Shown here: positions 13,042 to 23,050 of the stretch, one piece after another
Layout: each line of letters begins with the position of its first letter
Position numbering within the stretch: position 1 is the first letter of the stretch
Origin: a virus
IMG/VR virus record: IMGVR_UViG_3300031730_000021
Span: 1 to 23,375 of that record
Direction: 5' to 3' (one strand)
Length of the DNA stretch: 23,375 nt
The notes under the pieces: model-generated
The model's input: only the letters and a program-made list of their open reading frames with translations
What the model was told of the DNA's origin: nothing
The model's database searches: none
Program-made: the position numbers and the translations under genes

Positions 13042-14361
13042 TTAGCTCGATGCGATGTTGGAAACCGTCAGTTGGACGACGATCTGCTGGAAGCCCCGCG
13101 CTGGGGTGAACGACAGCGCCAGGCCGGCGTATTTGCCGATGGCGTAGTCTCCGGGCTCCTGGGCCACGTAGGTGGTGAACGGGATAGCCGTAACCGTTGC
13201 CTTCGGCGAGTTCAGAACGAGGCCGAACGAGACGCCGTTGTTGACGACGGACTGCGCCACCTTCTGCAGGCGGTTGATACCGTCCTGGTTGTAATAAAGC
13301 GGATTCGTCGGGTTGTTCGAGCCGTTGATCACGGCGCCCGAGAGCGCGAGATCCTGCTGGATGATCATCCAGTCCACGGAGTACCAGTAGTTCCACGGGT
13401 TGAGGTCGCCGAATTGGCCGTTCACGATCAACGTGTTCGAGATCCCGCCCTCCGCGCCCGTTCCGATCCAGTTGAGGCCGGCGGCCTTGAACGTGGTGAT
13501 CTGCGTGGGCGTGAGCGTGCTGTACGGCGTGACGCCGAAGACGTAGCGGAACGACAGCGGTGCCACGAGGCTGACCGGCCCAGGATCGGCGGACAGCGTG
13601 TCGTAGAGCACGGCCGCAGCGGAGAACTCGGTCGCGGGGGCACTCGGGCTCTGGATCATCAGGAACGTGGACTTGCACGGGAGCGTCGTCCAGTTCGCAT
13701 AGGTCGCGGCCGTCGTCGTCACGTAGAAGTAGACGGACGACGTGGGGCTCTCGTACTGCCGGAACAGTGTCGGCGCCGTGTTCTCCGCGTCCCACGTCTG
13801 CGGGATCAAGTAGCTGTAGAACTTGACGGGCGCCGGATTCGCCAGGTATGTGCCCAGCGCGGTGACGCCATCTGCCGGCGTGCCAATTCCGAGTTCCAGC
13901 ACATAGACGGCCTGCTGCGAACCCTGGGCGAAGAAGGTATCGCCCATTGCCTGCAGCTCGGCCACGGATTCGAGCTGAAAGGTTCCCGGCGTCGTCTCCG
14001 ATCCTGGGTTCGCCACCAGCGGGTAGGTGAACGTGCTCGCCCCGGTGGAGGTGACGGCGAACGTCCCGGAGTAGCCACTCGGAACCTGGCCGATGAGCTG
14101 ACCCTGGACGGTCTTTCCGACCGGGATTCCATGGGCCGCCGCCGTCGTCACGGTCGCCACACTGGAGGCCCAGGCGATCGAGGTGACAGCGATGGGCGTC
14201 TTCAGGATAGCCGTGAGGTCGGCCAACTCGGTGACAAGCGCGACCGATCCGGCGGCACCGGTAGTGGCGCCCTGCGAGACGAACGCCCCCGTCCGCTGCA
14301 GCGTGGACGGCGTGGAAGCCACCTGCTGGCTGACGTTGACGATGACGATATTGTTGCTCAT
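13042..14361 (-). CDS. Tail sheath protein, DUF3383-like (439 aa)
   Basis: The contractile sheath subunit. GGAGG about ten bases upstream of the ATG is a good ribosome binding site. The start (IVIVNVSQQVASTPSTLQRT), the middle (FYSYLIPQTWDAE, then FRQYESPTSSVYFYVTTTAA and TEFSAAAVLYDTL) and the C-terminus (GVSFGLVLNSPKATVTAIPF, then PGDYAIGKYAGLALSFTPA with RGFQQIVVQLTV) match the pattern of DUF3383-type sheaths of Bcep781/E217-like phages. The final domain is the strand that interlocks neighbouring subunits. Residues about 59-128 (SIAWASSVATVTTAAAHGIP, SGYSGTFAVTSTGASTFTYP) look like an inserted Ig-like domain placed after the N-terminal strand. The adjacent tube gene confirms the context. 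Confidence 0.9.
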   Translation of the reverse strand: MSNNIVIVNVSQQVASTPSTLQRTGAFVSQGATTGAAGSVALVTELADLTAILKTPIAVTSIAWASSVATVTTAAAHGIPVGKTVQGQLIGQVPSGYSGTFAVTSTGASTFTYPLVANPGSETTPGTFQLESVAELQAMGDTFFAQGSQQAVYVLELGIGTPADGVTALGTYLANPAPVKFYSYLIPQTWDAENTAPTLFRQYESPTSSVYFYVTTTAATYANWTTLPCKSTFLMIQSPSAPATEFSAAAVLYDTLSADPGPVSLVAPLSFRYVFGVTPYSTLTPTQITTFKAAGLNWIGTGAEGGISNTLIVNGQFGDLNPWNYWYSVDWMIIQQDLALSGAVINGSNNPTNPLYYNQDGINRLQKVAQSVVNNGVSFGLVLNSPKATVTAIPFTTYVAQEPGDYAIGKYAGLALSFTPARGFQQIVVQLTVSNIASS

Positions 14362-17277: not shown

Positions 17278-18297
17278 TCAGTAGGTCGCCGTGATGATGG
17301 TGATCGTCTCGGGGCGGATGCCCCATCCGGAGGTCGAGCGCAATTCAGCCAGCACGTCGGAGGCGCCGCCGGGAAGCGGGCATTGGATCTCCTTCGGCGC
17401 CACCATGTCGCAGAGCTGGACGGCCGCGCCCGTAAGGGACGGCTGCAGGTCGGCGAAAATGTTGGTGTTGATCCGGTTCTGGCTGGCCGGCTTCTTCACC
17501 TCGGGCATGTTGATGATGATGTAGTCGGCGCCACCGCTGGCTGCACCCTTCAGCGTGTCGTCCACGGTGAACGTCACCTCGTCGCCCTGGCGCTTGGCGA
17601 TGTCGGCCACCATGCCGGCCGTCGTCTCCACACCCGCGCCGTTGCGCTGGAACTGCGTGAGCTGCACCACGCCCTGGTAGTCCCACGCGGCATCGATCTG
17701 CTGCGAGGTAAGGATGTTGATGCGAACGCCCATCCCCATCAGGTTGGTTCGCACCTTCAGCGCGGCGATCTGCGACAGCAGGAACAGGGCCATCTGGCCA
17801 TTGTCGTAGGTCGAGATCGTGGTGTTCCCGTTGCTGTCCGCCGGCAGGTTGACCGTGGTGGCACCGGCCGTGTTCAGCAGGCCCTCGCCGGTCGCGCCGG
17901 AACCGAACAGGGCCGCCGTGCGAACCTGCTGGAAGATCGCTTGGCGCATACCCATGCGCTGGGCTTCGGCGAGCGCGACACCCCACTGAGCCGCCTGGCT
18001 CATATCGTGGTGGTCGTACTCGGCACGGACGCGCCAGAGGTAGGTCGGCGTCGAGAACTGGTGCGCCACCAGCGTCACGCTCGGCAGAGCGTTGTAGGCC
18101 ACCTGGCCGCCCGCGACTTGCGTACGCAGCTCCAGGGCCTTGCCGTAGACGGCGAGATCGCCTTCGCCCAGGCGCGGAAGCACCTCGCGGCCGGCCAGCG
18201 ATTCAGCGAAGCCGGAAGCCTGCTGATACTGCAGCACCACCTCGGGCATCATGAACGACGGGTGAGCCTGGACGTAGGCGGGAAACACGTTTGCCAT
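17278..18297 (-). CDS. Major capsid protein, DUF2184-like (339 aa)
   Basis: The main shell subunit. The gene follows the protease/scaffold and cement genes and has the strongest ribosome binding site seen (AAGGAG eight bases upstream) plus a downstream terminator, both expected for the most abundant protein. Features consistent with an HK97-fold coat are an N-arm (MANVFPAYVQAHPSFMMPEV), the spine-helix region around DHHDMSQAAQWGVALAEAQR, and the P-domain strands and helix with MGVRINILTSQQIDAAWDYQ. Near the C-terminus are ADYIIINMPEVKKPASQNRI and IRPETITIIT. This pattern matches the DUF2184-type capsid proteins of Bcep781/E217-like phages as I recall them. No internal stop or frameshift is present. 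Confidence 0.9.
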   Translation of the reverse strand: MANVFPAYVQAHPSFMMPEVVLQYQQASGFAESLAGREVLPRLGEGDLAVYGKALELRTQVAGGQVAYNALPSVTLVAHQFSTPTYLWRVRAEYDHHDMSQAAQWGVALAEAQRMGMRQAIFQQVRTAALFGSGATGEGLLNTAGATTVNLPADSNGNTTISTYDNGQMALFLLSQIAALKVRTNLMGMGVRINILTSQQIDAAWDYQGVVQLTQFQRNGAGVETTAGMVADIAKRQGDEVTFTVDDTLKGAASGGADYIIINMPEVKKPASQNRINTNIFADLQPSLTGAAVQLCDMVAPKEIQCPLPGGASDVLAELRSTSGWGIRPETITIITATY

Positions 18298-18312: not shown

Positions 18313-18918
18313 TTAGATGATGACGATGGCCGCCGCGTTTCCGCTGCGCGTCCACGTTGCTGCGTTGGTGCCGTCGAACGCCACCGTCATGACCTGCGCC
18401 GTCTGGATGGACAGGATCTTGATCGGCAGGGCGGCCACGGTGTCGTAGGCGACGATGCGCTGGTTCGTGAAGTCCCACGAAACCTGTTGCGTGATCAGGC
18501 CGCCGTCGTCGGACACCAGCGCCGGGTCGATGGCGAGCGCCAGCTTCGCGCCCGAGCCCAGGCGGAAGAAGTTCACTTGGCCGCCGCTCAGCGTCTGCGG
18601 GACGGGCGACTGCGGCGAGCTGATGGCCGCACCGTTCTGGTTGAACACCGAGAAGCCGGTGAGGTTGGCTTCCGTGGTGGCGCGCTTGATCTGCGAGCCA
18701 CGCGGGTCGTTGCCCGAGGCGGGGATGTATTCGCCGATGGCGACACCACCCCACATGGGCAGAGTCTCCGATGCGGCGAGCACGCCACCGGACAGCGCGA
18801 ATCGCTTTGCCGGATCATCGAAGAACGTACCAGCGACGAGGCCGGCGGCCGTCGTCAGGAAAAGGCCGGCCGCGACCGTGGTCGCGAACGGGTTGAATGC
18901 GATGCTGTTCGCGCTCAT
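18313..18918 (-). CDS. Head cement/decoration protein (201 aa)
   Basis: Starts in an ATGA overlap with the protease/scaffold gene and ends 15 bases before the capsid start, the usual place of the structural cement protein. The sequence is beta-rich: MSANSIAFNPFATTVAAGLF, then MWGGVAIGEYIPA (a pattern like the M-x-G-G-V-x-I-x-E motif in cement proteins of related phages), LTGFSVFNQNGAAISSPQSP, VNFFRLGSGAKLALAIDPAL and a terminal hydrophobic stretch (SGNAAAIVII). No enzymatic motif is visible. Function as a capsid-stabilising protein is inferred from position and recalled family resemblance. Confidence 0.78.
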   Translation of the reverse strand: MSANSIAFNPFATTVAAGLFLTTAAGLVAGTFFDDPAKRFALSGGVLAASETLPMWGGVAIGEYIPASGNDPRGSQIKRATTEANLTGFSVFNQNGAAISSPQSPVPQTLSGGQVNFFRLGSGAKLALAIDPALVSDDGGLITQQVSWDFTNQRIVAYDTVAALPIKILSIQTAQVMTVAFDGTNAATWTRSGNAAAIVII

Positions 18919-19673
18919 TGCTTGTCACCCTTGTTGAAGTGGATGAGGCCACGCACGGGGGCGCGGAAGTCGTCCATCCAGCCACCGGCCGGGCCGACGA
19001 ACGTCGTGATGTTGTGGCCGGTGTTGTCGTCGCGGCGACGGATCGCACGCGGCGAGCGCGGGGCGCCGGCTTCGGTCAGCGGGGCGTGCGAGGCGGCAGC
19101 GGCGTCGGCCAGGATCGTCTCCTCGGCGATCTTGAGCGCCACGGAGTCGGTGATCGCCGACAGGTCGGCGCCCTTCCAGGCCGGCGAATGCGGCTGCAGC
19201 TTGCGCAGGAGGCGCGTGCGGTAACCCAGCAGGCGCTCGCCGTCCATCTTGCGCGGGGCTGTCAGGCCGTGCATCTGGTAAACGGAGTCGGCGCGCGCCT
19301 GGCAGTCGGCCATCGCTTCAGCTTCCTCGGCGTCCTTCTTCGCGGATTCCTCGGCATCCTTCATGGACTTCTCCTTCTCTTCGGCCGAATCCTTCTCGGC
19401 CTTCTCGAACGCGTCTTTCTTCGCCTGCTCTTCGGCAGCGTCCTTCGCGGCCTTTTCCTCGGCGTCCTTGCGGGCGCTGTCGGCGGCGTTGAGGGCCGGG
19501 GCCGGCATGTTCTTCTCGGCCGCATCCATGCGCGAGCCGAGGGCGCCGACGGAGCCGGCGATTCCCTTCACGAGGGCCATGATCTCGGAGAGGCTGGGCT
19601 GGGAGTCCGCAATGGCGGCATCCTTCTTCGCCTTCTCTTCGGCGGCGATCTTCGCCTTCTCTTCTTCGGTCAT
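18915..19673 (-). CDS. Nested in-frame scaffold protein from internal start (252 aa)
   Basis: An ATG at 19673, codon 371 of the larger protease gene, has GAGGT five to nine bases upstream, which is a far better site than that of the full-length start. Translation from here gives only the charged part: MTEEEKAKIAAEEKAKKDAA, further Lys/Ala/Glu repeats up to about residue 150, and a C-terminal globular-looking part that ends with TGHNITTFVGPAGGWMDDF. A protease gene with an in-frame 3' scaffold gene is well known (lambda C/Nu3). The nested product would be the internal scaffold, cleaved or released during maturation. The start site and SD are visible; use of the site is inference. Confidence 0.65.
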   Translation of the reverse strand: MTEEEKAKIAAEEKAKKDAAIADSQPSLSEIMALVKGIAGSVGALGSRMDAAEKNMPAPALNAADSARKDAEEKAAKDAAEEQAKKDAFEKAEKDSAEEKEKSMKDAEESAKKDAEEAEAMADCQARADSVYQMHGLTAPRKMDGERLLGYRTRLLRKLQPHSPAWKGADLSAITDSVALKIAEETILADAAAASHAPLTEAGAPRSPRAIRRRDDNTGHNITTFVGPAGGWMDDFRAPVRGLIHFNKGDKQ

Positions 19674-20783
19674 CGATACCTCGATTGGTTGATCAACTTG
19701 CACACCCTCGGAAGGGCCTTCTTTATCCCACACTCCACGCTCGCAGATTGCGAGGTGATCTATCAAATATGGATTGCCTTCGATCAGGATCGAAGTGTCA
19801 CCGTCGAGCGGAACTTTAACACTGCCACTCGCGGCGTCAAATACAACGCCAGGAGACGTGCTCCAAGTCGCTCCCGGGCGAGCCATTTCGGCGCCGGCCA
19901 CCATGTCCAGAATGCGCGCGATACCCCACACCTCGCCGTCGCCTTCCGGCGTGGTGGCGTGGACGAGATACGGCAGCAGGATGGCGCCGACGTTCGACTC
20001 CGCGTAGCTGGCGGTGTCGAGCTTGTTCTTCTCCGGATGCTGCCAGACGACGGGCAGGCCGTTGCAGCGCGCCAGAAACTCGTCATTCATGTACAACGAT
20101 GCGTCCCGGTGCGCGAACTCGCCGAGCTTGCCCGGCTCTTTCTCGCGCTGCTCTTCGCTGGCCCAGCGGAACACCTGGCCCGTGCCCGTGATGCGCAGGG
20201 CGAACAGCATGGAGTTCCCGAATACCTGGGGCGACGGCAGGTCGCCATCGCGGATCAGGCGCGCCACATCCAGCTCGGTGTGCGCCGCCGCAACGCGGAA
20301 CGCAACCCTCAGGCCGGGATGCAGTGGCTCCGGCGCTTCGTCGGGCTTGCACCAGACGAATCCGGTGGACTCGTCGCAGATCGTGACTTCGAACTTTTCC
20401 ACTCCACGGGCGACGAACGTAGAAAATTGGCCATCGCTGCAAAGCAACGCGAGGGGGCCTTCGTAGGCGAAACCGGATTCTTCAAGGGCTTCGCGTCGTG
20501 CGGCTTGCTCATCGGTTTCTCCCTCCTCCAGGTGGCCGCCCGGCAGGCCGAAAGTGCGCGGGAAGTCGCCGCCGTCGCCGCGCCGCAGGAGCAGCGTCTC
20601 GCCTTCGTCGGTCAGGAACAGGATTCCGGCTGCGCGGCCGAGCGGGCCAGCCTTCGGTGCGATTGGCATCTCGTCGGCCTCGGCGAATTCCCTCCCCACC
20701 GCCTGAGAGACTCCAGCTACGCCGCCGGGGGTATGGGCTGCGGCCTCCATTAGGCGGTGCTGGGCTGGCGAGACGGTGGGCAT
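18915..20783 (-). CDS. Nudix domain - DUF2213-like prohead protease - scaffold fusion (622 aa)
   Basis: The ATG at 20783 follows the MuF-like stop by 16 bases; upstream in-frame sequence is a shadow of that gene. The ribosome binding site is weak (GAGG, 14 bases away). Residues about 50-165 form a Nudix domain with a near-complete box at 83-105 (G, E89, R97-E98, E101-E102, G104), so the metal-binding glutamates are intact. Residues about 190-370 match DUF2213: RDASLYMNDEFLARCNGLPV, then S310 in TSPG and H343 in DHLAICERGVWDK, candidates for the protease Ser and His. Residues 371 to about 520 are Lys/Ala/Glu/Asp repeats expected to form a scaffold coiled coil; the C-terminal ~100 residues probably touch the capsid. 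The protease/scaffold pairing is standard; the Nudix addition is unusual. Confidence 0.88.
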   Translation of the reverse strand: MPTVSPAQHRLMEAAAHTPGGVAGVSQAVGREFAEADEMPIAPKAGPLGRAAGILFLTDEGETLLLRRGDGGDFPRTFGLPGGHLEEGETDEQAARREALEESGFAYEGPLALLCSDGQFSTFVARGVEKFEVTICDESTGFVWCKPDEAPEPLHPGLRVAFRVAAAHTELDVARLIRDGDLPSPQVFGNSMLFALRITGTGQVFRWASEEQREKEPGKLGEFAHRDASLYMNDEFLARCNGLPVVWQHPEKNKLDTASYAESNVGAILLPYLVHATTPEGDGEVWGIARILDMVAGAEMARPGATWSTSPGVVFDAASGSVKVPLDGDTSILIEGNPYLIDHLAICERGVWDKEGPSEGVQVDQPIEVSMTEEEKAKIAAEEKAKKDAAIADSQPSLSEIMALVKGIAGSVGALGSRMDAAEKNMPAPALNAADSARKDAEEKAAKDAAEEQAKKDAFEKAEKDSAEEKEKSMKDAEESAKKDAEEAEAMADCQARADSVYQMHGLTAPRKMDGERLLGYRTRLLRKLQPHSPAWKGADLSAITDSVALKIAEETILADAAAASHAPLTEAGAPRSPRAIRRRDDNTGHNITTFVGPAGGWMDDFRAPVRGLIHFNKGDKQ

Positions 20784-20799: not shown

Positions 20800-21618
20800 T
20801 CAAGTGGGCGGAAGCGCGTACATGCCTGCCTTCGTGAGCATGTCCGCAGGGATCTTTCGCAACGCGAAAATGTAGGTGGCCCAGCATGAGCAGAACACCT
20901 CCTCTCCCACATGCGTCACCTCGTCGTAGTAGCCCGCCGGCCCGACCTTCATCTTCCCCTGAGCGAGCGCCCAATTTCCCCGGATGGTGTACACGAGCTG
21001 ATCGCGCGCCTTGTGATCGGGTCGGAAGTCATAGCCCGGTCGGCGGAATGGCGAGTTCCAAGTGAGCGCGAGCGCGTCGTTCCCCGTCGCCACGATGTCA
21101 TTGATCGTCGCCACGAGCTTGTGCGTCTGGTCGATCACCACGCGCCGCTCCTGGAAGGGCATTTGCCCGAGCGCCTTGCGGATGTCGGCCTTCTCCTCCT
21201 TCACGTCCACCGCGCGCGAGCCTCCAGGCCCGATGGACGTGGCCCAGCCCTGGAAGCGACGGAGCGTCGTGTCGATGGCCGCCTCGCGGTTCAGCTTGAT
21301 CAGGTTCGCGCTCGCCATGATGCGGCGATCCAGCTCGGCCCGGAGCTTCGGCTTCACGCGGTCGATGTTCACGCGCTTCAGCTCGGGCATGTTGCGTAGC
21401 ACGCCGCCCTGAGTCACGAGGCCGCGATAGCGGTCGGTCAGAACGCGCTTCAGCTCGCGCTCCGTCTCGGCCGGCGTGCGGAGCTGCAGGAGCGCCGAGC
21501 GGCGCAGGCGCGCCACCCACTGATCGAGCTGGGCCTGAGAGGTGAAGCCGTACTGCTTGAAGTGGTTGACGGCCTCCGTCACCTCGGCGAAGAACGTGGG
21601 GGCGTTACTCCGCGCCAT
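20800..21618 (-). CDS. Minor head protein, phage Mu gpF-like (272 aa)
   Basis: The ATG at 21618 overlaps the end of the portal gene by 14 bases; an upstream in-frame start gives an N-terminus that is a shadow of the portal gene. The helical N-terminal part (FFAEVTEAVNHFKQYGFTSQ, LRRSALLQLRTPAETERELK) resembles MuF proteins. The conserved C-terminal region from residue 187 has PDHKARDQLVYTIRGNWALA (200-219), then DEVTHVGEEVFCSCWATYIF and ALRKIPADMLTKAG, the D-H/R, V-T-x-x-G-E-E-V-x-C-x-C pattern of the family. These proteins are packaged in the head with the portal and are required early in head assembly. The order portal, MuF, protease is standard. Confidence 0.88.
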   Translation of the reverse strand: MARSNAPTFFAEVTEAVNHFKQYGFTSQAQLDQWVARLRRSALLQLRTPAETERELKRVLTDRYRGLVTQGGVLRNMPELKRVNIDRVKPKLRAELDRRIMASANLIKLNREAAIDTTLRRFQGWATSIGPGGSRAVDVKEEKADIRKALGQMPFQERRVVIDQTHKLVATINDIVATGNDALALTWNSPFRRPGYDFRPDHKARDQLVYTIRGNWALAQGKMKVGPAGYYDEVTHVGEEVFCSCWATYIFALRKIPADMLTKAGMYALPPT

Positions 21619-23050
21619 CGCCCGAGTCCTCATCGCCACCGTCCTCGCCTCCACCATCACCGCCCGGCGCGCCCGGCTGCGGCGGCTCGTAGCTCGCCAG
21701 GGCCGCCAGATCGATGACGAGCGTGTTCGTGAAGAATTCGGGCATGTCGGCCATTGCCTGCGAGAACCACTCCACGGCGTTCGCACGGTTGATTGGATCG
21801 AGCGACGGGAGCAACGTCTTCAGGACTTCGACCATCGCCTTCAGCTTGTCGGCGTTGCGCTTGACCACCTCGGACTTCGGCTCCTGGATCAGCGTCGGCC
21901 ATTCCGTCGTGAATAGCGCCTTCATGTCGTAGAACCACTGTTCGTAGCTCACTCCCTTCAGCTCGGGAATATCGTTCTGCAGAGCAGCGTAGAAGTCCGG
22001 ATTCCAGGCCCTGTGCATCACGATTCGGTCGAAGAAAGCATGCGCCGGCTGCAATTCGTTGCGGATCGAATCGATGTACTGCACCACCGCGAGCATGTCC
22101 TGATCGCCGCTGGCGAGACCCTTCGCGAAGCTTTCGTCCTTGATCAAGATTGCGGGAACGTCCGTCGCGGCAGCGATGTCGCTGATGATGTTGTCGCGCG
22201 CCACCGTCATTGCCTTGTCGGTGTTCTGGAGGTTGATGGATTCGATGGATTCCGTGATACCGATGGTGAGCGTGTTGTTCGTCTTTCCCATGTTCAGAAG
22301 CGAGCGCTTCCAGCCGGAGATCTTCGCGGCTACCTTGTTCACCACCGAGCCGCCCTGCTCCATCTTCGCGATGATCAGGCCGGCTTTCAGCGACACCATG
22401 TCGTTCACGATCATGGTCTGGATGAAGGACTTCATCGGGAACAGCGCGCGCAGGAACACCGATCGGCCCGAGAAGCTGAAGCTCGAACTCTGAAAGCTCA
22501 GGTAGATCGGCGTCCCGTTGAACAGCAGCACCGAGCGCGATTTGTGGTAAGGCTGGCCGGCGGCCGTGATGTCCTGCCACGCCTTCTGGTAGTCGGGCGC
22601 GTTCGGATTCTGGTTCGTCACCGCCGAGCCCGAGAGGTTCAGTGGGTCGAAGATATTCACGTACAGGTCTTCGACCTTGTAGAGCGCTTCCAGCGGGATC
22701 GGCTTGTCCGTGGGGTAGTTCGGCGCGCCGTAGATCAGGGCGCCCAGGCCATACGCGCGCGAGACGTGCGCGAGGTCACGGATGTAGCGCGTGGCCTCCA
22801 GCTTGTCCCATTCTTCATTGAACGCCTTCACGAGCTGTTCTTCGGTGGCGCTGGGGATGTTGATCTTCCGGCGTTGTCCGAGCGCGAGCGCGATGGGCTT
22901 CTCGACCACCTTGCCGGCCAGCGGGTGAAGTTCCCAAAGCTGCTTGCACAGCTCGTAGCTCGCGGGCGCGCCGGGGACGATCTCGTTCGCATCGAGGATT
23001 GCCATCAGGCCGTTCGGGACGGTGGAGCTGGAGATTTCGATATTGCTCAT
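21605..23050 (-). CDS. Portal protein, DUF1073-like (481 aa)
   Basis: Forms the dodecameric DNA entry and exit ring at one capsid vertex and docks the terminase. The gene lies 32 bases after the terminase stop. The N-terminal core (CKQLWELHPLAGKVVEKPIA, then RYIRDLAHVSRAYGLGALIY) and the central strands fit the DUF1073 portal family. The stem-region motif TDVPAILIKDESFAKGLASG (P299 within it), followed by DQD, corresponds to the family's conserved P-x-x-x-L/I...G...G-x-x-D segment. The C-terminal ~25 residues are Pro/Gly and then Asp/Glu-rich (GGDGGGEDGGDEDSGDGAE) and probably disordered. The start is preceded by a CCTGAGAGAATCC leader that recurs before the tape measure gene. Confidence 0.92.
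   Translation of the reverse strand: MSNIEISSSTVPNGLMAILDANEIVPGAPASYELCKQLWELHPLAGKVVEKPIALALGQRRKINIPSATEEQLVKAFNEEWDKLEATRYIRDLAHVSRAYGLGALIYGAPNYPTDKPIPLEALYKVEDLYVNIFDPLNLSGSAVTNQNPNAPDYQKAWQDITAAGQPYHKSRSVLLFNGTPIYLSFQSSSFSFSGRSVFLRALFPMKSFIQTMIVNDMVSLKAGLIIAKMEQGGSVVNKVAAKISGWKRSLLNMGKTNNTLTIGITESIESINLQNTDKAMTVARDNIISDIAAATDVPAILIKDESFAKGLASGDQDMLAVVQYIDSIRNELQPAHAFFDRIVMHRAWNPDFYAALQNDIPELKGVSYEQWFYDMKALFTTEWPTLIQEPKSEVVKRNADKLKAMVEVLKTLLPSLDPINRANAVEWFSQAMADMPEFFTNTLVIDLAALASYEPPQPGAPGGDGGGEDGGDEDSGDGAE

Follow-up and report, generated by a model that had tools for sequence, protein, structure and literature searches.

A Nudix hydrolase domain on the head protease and scaffold of contractile-tailed phages: a candidate cargo enzyme of the procapsid

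Results

A gene in the head cluster of a contractile-tailed phage joins a Nudix domain, predicted to be an active hydrolase, to a putative DUF2213-type head maturation protease and to a scaffold that has a nested start. The chance is about even that this domain serves as an active cargo enzyme, entering the procapsid with the protease-scaffold and probably acting at infection. The gene lies in the window, the whole stretch of 23,375 nucleotides that was analyzed, which is a 23-kb viral fragment; the record search found no near-identical phage records.

Gene organization

The gene (18915..20783, minus strand) is open throughout, from its ATG at 20783 to its stop at 18915, and encodes 622 residues in a single frame. 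The profile of PHROG 6216 matches nearly the full length of the protein (residues 51-617 of 622, E=9e-136). From the N-terminus, the protein contains a short motif, MPTVSPAQHRLMEAAAHTPGGVAGVSQAVGREFAEAD (residues 1-38; 20670..20783; PHROG 16759, E=2e-6), a Nudix domain whose box is complete (residues 48-159; 20307..20642), a putative, divergent DUF2213-type head protease (residues 166-365; 19689..20288) and a coiled scaffold (residues 371-622; 18918..19673), all on the minus strand. The first-pass annotation had described the Nudix box, protease and scaffold in one frame; the separate short motif is a refinement of it.

The neighboring genes are encoded on the same strand. The portal protein (21605..23050; PF06381; PHROG 146, E=2e-45) and a MuF/SPP1 gp7-like head morphogenesis protein (20800..21786; PHROG 324, E=1e-13) precede the fused gene. 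A small head protein (18313..18918; PHROG 6268), whose position between protease and capsid is also seen in PdC23, Chronis and Bcep1, and the major capsid protein (17278..18297; PF09950, E=1e-10; PHROG 264 major head protein, 3e-10) follow it. This order is normal for a contractile-tailed phage, an assignment drawn from the tail sheath (13042..14361, minus strand; PHROG 205, E=1e-30) and the baseplate proteins encoded downstream.

The Nudix domain

The Nudix domain matches PF00293 far above the Pfam cut-off (E=9.8e-15; 55.2 bits versus 21.1 bits), and its box, GHLEEGETDEQAARREALEESGF (residues 83-105; 20469..20537, minus strand), fits GX5EX7REUXEEXGU exactly. The AlphaFold2 model, with a pLDDT of about 90-97 in this domain, matches many solved Nudix structures with a probability of 1.00. 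The catalytic Arg-Glu and Glu-Glu pairs, which the first-pass annotation had read as intact, are present as R97, E98, E101 and E102. They are kept in 134 of 135 aligned Nudix domains, an alignment that takes in the portal domains, the Bm1 domain and a second protease clade. Loss of the glutamates, named beforehand as evidence against an enzyme, was thus found once, in L104. In this Acetobacteraceae genome (L104:5833-7641) the box is degenerate, making it a naturally occurring and probably inactive variant. In all ten pairs compared, dN of the Nudix domain is well below dS (e.g., 0.09/0.73 and 0.04/0.85), which points to a domain that is under purifying selection. A chance occurrence of the box is ruled out by the Pfam match (E=1e-14), the fold match and the conservation, and a decayed domain by dN/dS and conservation, degeneration being confined to L104. 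An active hydrolase is the best explanation of this domain, as predicted from its sequence.

The nearest solved structures are MutT-, NUDX1-, NUDT15- and Ap4A-hydrolase-like. ADP-ribose-type Nudix enzymes carry a proline at +15/16 after the box. In the window protein this proline, sought 15-16 residues past the box, is absent and the positions are occupied by Phe15-Ser16, a weak test given that T4 NudE itself is not classified in this way. In vitro, T4 NudE acts on nucleotide-diphosphate compounds of this kind (such as an ADP-ribose derivative, an NAD derivative or diadenosine polyphosphate). This phage enzyme is encoded among virion and late genes, nudE adjoining the internal-protein genes ipII and ipIII, and is matched by the HMM of the present family at 44 bits; unlike the present protein it is standalone and unfused, and its region past the box differs. 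Iyer et al. 2022 (PMC9503650) place head-fused Nudix domains in a T4 NudE-like clade. An aromatic residue (F/Y) stands at +18 after the box in 128 of the 135 aligned domains, and a Tyr in the region after the box is described in PMC5389931, after Dunn 1999, as marking ApnA (diadenosine polyphosphate) hydrolases. The +18 aromatic, near that position, is a lead to the substrate, with no assignment made.

The protease domain

The window protein itself gives no match to Pfam DUF2213 (PF09979), but relatives exceed the Pfam cut-off at the equivalent region (PdC23, E=2e-9; Rac-SA53, 5e-8; Chronis, 8e-8; YenM, 9e-8). The AlphaFold model covers residues 1-369 with a mean pLDDT of 84.9; values are close to 90 or higher across the Nudix domain and most of the protease, with disorder at residues 19-47. 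It matches viral predicted models in BFVD named DUF2213 protein and prohead serine protease with a probability of 1.00; searches of solved structures with the protease part gave no match. The relatives and the model matches agree with the earlier reading of this region as a DUF2213-like protease. The invariant residues are H249, S308-T-S310-P and D342-H343 (H249, S308, S310 and H343 in sets of 53 and 73 sequences). The invariant His and Ser residues are catalytic candidates and, together with the family annotation, are the basis of the putative protease activity. An hhalign comparison of one-sequence profiles of the protease and canonical DUF2213 was uninformative (probability 0.5), with STSP aligned to LSCGY. 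The junction between Nudix and protease is modelled as a short, confident stretch with almost no linker.

The nested scaffold start

The scaffold begins at M371 (MTEEEKAK...), at the protease/scaffold junction, and a Shine-Dalgarno-like GAGG lies at -9 to -6 of this codon (19679..19682, minus strand). Among 80 non-redundant fused relatives, such a motif is present at the junction Met in 74, versus 60 of 1075 (5.6%) other internal Mets, a count in which the relatives are not independent and the P value is not literal. The scaffold is a separate ORF in L064, L078, L080, L084-L088, L090, L091, L094-L096 and L098. At these split loci the protease ORF stops at the junction; an overlapping ATG, mostly in the form GAAAATGACTGA, opens the rest of the scaffold in another frame. 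In L084:4496-5866, L078, L064 and others, the split falls exactly at the nested start of the fused gene. By these signals, the scaffold has its own conserved in-frame internal start and could be made alone; the Nudix domain would thus be carried by the long, protease-bearing product only.

Lambda gpC/Nu3 is organized alike, the scaffold being made from an in-frame internal start and sharing its sequence with the protease C-terminus. Unlike in lambda, the protease belongs to an unrelated family and an enzyme occupies the N-terminus. The nested start is new here, being absent from the available part of the account by Iyer et al. 2022 (PMC9503650).

Translation starting downstream of the Nudix part had also been named as evidence against the fusion; between residues 39 and 371, none of the candidate starts has a good ribosome-binding site. 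An untranslated Nudix domain is ruled out, given that the only ATGs with a Shine-Dalgarno motif up to the scaffold are M39, which retains the Nudix domain, and M371, which gives the scaffold alone. M39 (window 20667-20669), with a GAGG upstream, is a possible alternative start, and its product would be a Nudix-protease-scaffold protein that lacks the N-terminal motif.

The N-terminal exchange slot

Ahead of the Nudix domain, relatives have one of two short motifs, of SPAQ type (PHROG 16759) or PLEEGSS type (PHROG 2423), and sometimes more. The additional domains include an ADP-ribosyltransferase (PF03496) with visible R, STS and ExE motifs (L061, E=3e-18; L146, 3e-21), the polyvalent-protein domain LPD3 (PF18798; L147, 1e-16), DUF6321 (L055, L096, L042, L092 and L200) and a PHROG 25904-like insert (L059/L134); L053 and L060 have no insert. 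Identity between L059 and L061 is 95-100% upstream of the gene and 97-100% in the scaffold half, but falls to 76-79% in most of the Nudix domain, and the two inserts bear no relation to each other. Between these near-identical phages (L061:5266-7782 and L059:5161-7782) the ADP-ribosyltransferase and the PHROG 25904-like insert form a sharp-edged cassette swap. Contigs from several samples, three of the L061 type and two of the L146 type, count against misassembly. From these comparisons, the N-terminal end of the gene is an exchange slot; the cassette exchange is new here and absent from what is accessible of the account in PMC9503650. The swapping of other enzymes into this end suggests a loading slot for head-carried proteins.

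Both short motifs are also free small genes in head clusters: the SPAQ-type motif is a standalone ORF of 52 aa between the portal and capsid genes of Stenotrophomonas phage BUCT555, and in KPP22 such a gene is annotated as a virion protein. The PLEEGSS-type motif is found on Acinetobacter head proteases as well. Further free small ORFs are L128:4001-4159, L126:2614-2820 and L125:1916-2080, which in two of the phages lie within the head cluster. The 54-aa 'NUDIX domain-containing protein' of Cronobacter A24 is mislabelled, being just a short tag motif. PHROG 595 (head maturation proteases), which L061:5266-7782 matches, has a C-terminal part resembling the L061 ADP-ribosyltransferase, and effector fusion to head proteases may thus extend beyond this family.

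Distribution of the fusion and other Nudix layouts

Scans of IMG/VR gave overlapping counts: 6 relatives in the first, at least 334 candidate loci when an alignment was searched, of which the best 80 were kept, and 272 in the fourth, which started from a relative. A Nudix domain is present in 102 of 111 non-redundant family members, and 9 (about 8%) are without it, so the domain is not required for head assembly as such. Among contractile-tailed phages, this kind of fusion is a common feature of one group. The first-pass annotation had considered the linkage of the enzyme to the protease unusual, which does not hold, given the number of IMG/VR loci, the proportion of relatives with the domain and a report from 2022. 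That report (Iyer et al. 2022, PMC9503650) describes Nudix domains fused to MuF, portal and capsid-processing peptidase and proposes packaging and injection; the basic idea and the architecture are therefore already known.

The cultivated members of PHROG 6216 (Klebsiella Chronis gp4, Pantoea PdC23 gp04, Shewanella QDWS gp44 and the Yersinia YenM phages) have the same Nudix-protease-scaffold order between the MuF and capsid genes, but are only about 40% identical to the window protein. The N-terminal motif of 38 residues is shared with QDWS, whereas the enterobacterial members lack it. Contigs of Caballeronia, Paraburkholderia, Serratia, Kluyvera and Raoultella also carry copies, which are presumably prophage-borne.

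In a second group (L014, L109-L116 and L124), the Nudix domain is joined to a canonical DUF2213 protease. These head maturation proteases (PHROG 3778; L113 and L014 clade) likewise carry the Nudix domain N-terminally, but their protease is canonical (L113, E=6e-41) and the similarity to PHROG 6216 is limited to the Nudix part. The link between Nudix and protease thus arose or moved more than once. In the Bcep781 group, a related Nudix domain (47-50% identity) also sits on a head component, in this case the portal (PHROG 15528), whereas the protease is a separate gene. Bcep1 carries it on the portal C-terminus; Bm1 encodes the Nudix domain on its own, in a gene flanked by those for MuF and protease. 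Protease-scaffold proteins without Nudix include those of Rac-SA53 and L102. Two labels appear to be wrong: the 'nudix'/TolA protein of Rac-SA53 (L005:6010-7302) has no Nudix domain, and the 'glycosyl transferase' of YenM 29.18 (L004:5986-7617) is a Nudix-protease-scaffold protein.

Discussion

The cargo reading proposes that one frame would give two products, a short scaffold from residue 371 and a long protein with Nudix, head protease and scaffold. The scaffold part common to both would pull the long product, and hence Nudix and protease, into the procapsid. The Nudix domain would sit in an N-terminal cargo slot, in which relatives place an ADP-ribosyltransferase, LPD3 or DUF6321 ahead of it. 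The earlier claim that the enzyme is built into or trapped in the procapsid gains from the in-frame fusion, the intact and conserved catalysis and the scaffold tail, which should place the enzyme inside; entry into the procapsid is likely on these grounds. Subsequently, the Nudix domain, alone or as a Nudix-protease piece, would be retained in the mature head and act at infection, with a nucleotide-diphosphate compound as its substrate, for instance an ADP-ribose derivative, an NAD derivative or a diadenosine polyphosphate. For retention and ejection, the chances are about even. As a rule, the propeptides that head proteases remove are expected to exit the head (PMC10052503), and maturation could therefore eliminate the Nudix part. 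On the other hand, the model has hardly any linker, and thus no obvious cleavable one, between Nudix and protease, and a Nudix-protease piece may stay joined. Literature searches found no virion proteomics for such a fusion or for any member of the family. The intact catalysis, the scaffold tail and the effector-type domains in the slot together support a cargo enzyme, as do the tie of Nudix to head genes in other layouts (the Bcep1 portal and the Bm1 standalone gene) and the place of T4 nudE next to ipII and ipIII, and Iyer et al. 2022 argued for packaging and injection from comparable evidence; the relatives without Nudix and the missing ADP-ribose-type proline count against it.

The exit of propeptides (PMC10052503) also suits an enzyme that works only in the producing cell or procapsid, its targets being, for example, nucleotides close to the assembling head or a late-infection signal, and that is cut up and cleared at maturation and never delivered. 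The conserved catalysis and the expression as a late product of the head operon agree with this, which is nonetheless rather unlikely: it gives no account of the tie between the enzyme and the head protease, and the same slot holds an ADP-ribosyltransferase and LPD3, domains known from injected polyvalent proteins (PMC5512222, PMC9503650). It is improbable that an ordinary nucleotide-pool or metabolic Nudix enzyme landed by the protease gene and is tolerated there as a passenger, its position and cargo status being meaningless. The dispensability of the domain (9 of 111 relatives) fits such an accident, and so does the second lineage on canonical DUF2213, in that fusion by neighborhood appears easy. 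Against it stand the repeated association of Nudix with portal, MuF-neighborhood and protease genes, its long-term retention at one N-terminal place and the fact that other effector-type domains were inserted there more than once. Less probable still is a non-enzymatic fold with a structural or ligand-sensing role, by which the protease would be positioned or regulated. Some Nudix domains are sensors, NrtR for example, and the modelled direct join to the protease could serve such a role; yet the catalytic residues are kept in all aligned domains except one, and protease-scaffold proteins without Nudix exist (Rac-SA53 and L102).

The cargo reading can be extended, tentatively and at somewhat less than an even chance, to the N-terminus of the protease/scaffold as a general and fast-exchanged loading dock. 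Fused enzymes (Nudix, ADP-ribosyltransferase, LPD3 and others) would enter the procapsid on the scaffold at the copy number of the protease and, as an interchangeable counter-defence set, be delivered together with the DNA, and the nested start would keep the dose of cargo low.

With the architecture itself reported before, further work should focus on the nested start and the swap slot, and several cultivated phages carry the slot, which makes it directly testable. If true, this would be a natural scaffold-guided cargo route, distinct from the capsid-targeting peptides of T4 and from MuF fusions. If the slot loads enzymes into heads, inspecting the fusions upstream of the head protease would be a rule for finding proteins that are delivered at the first moment of infection.
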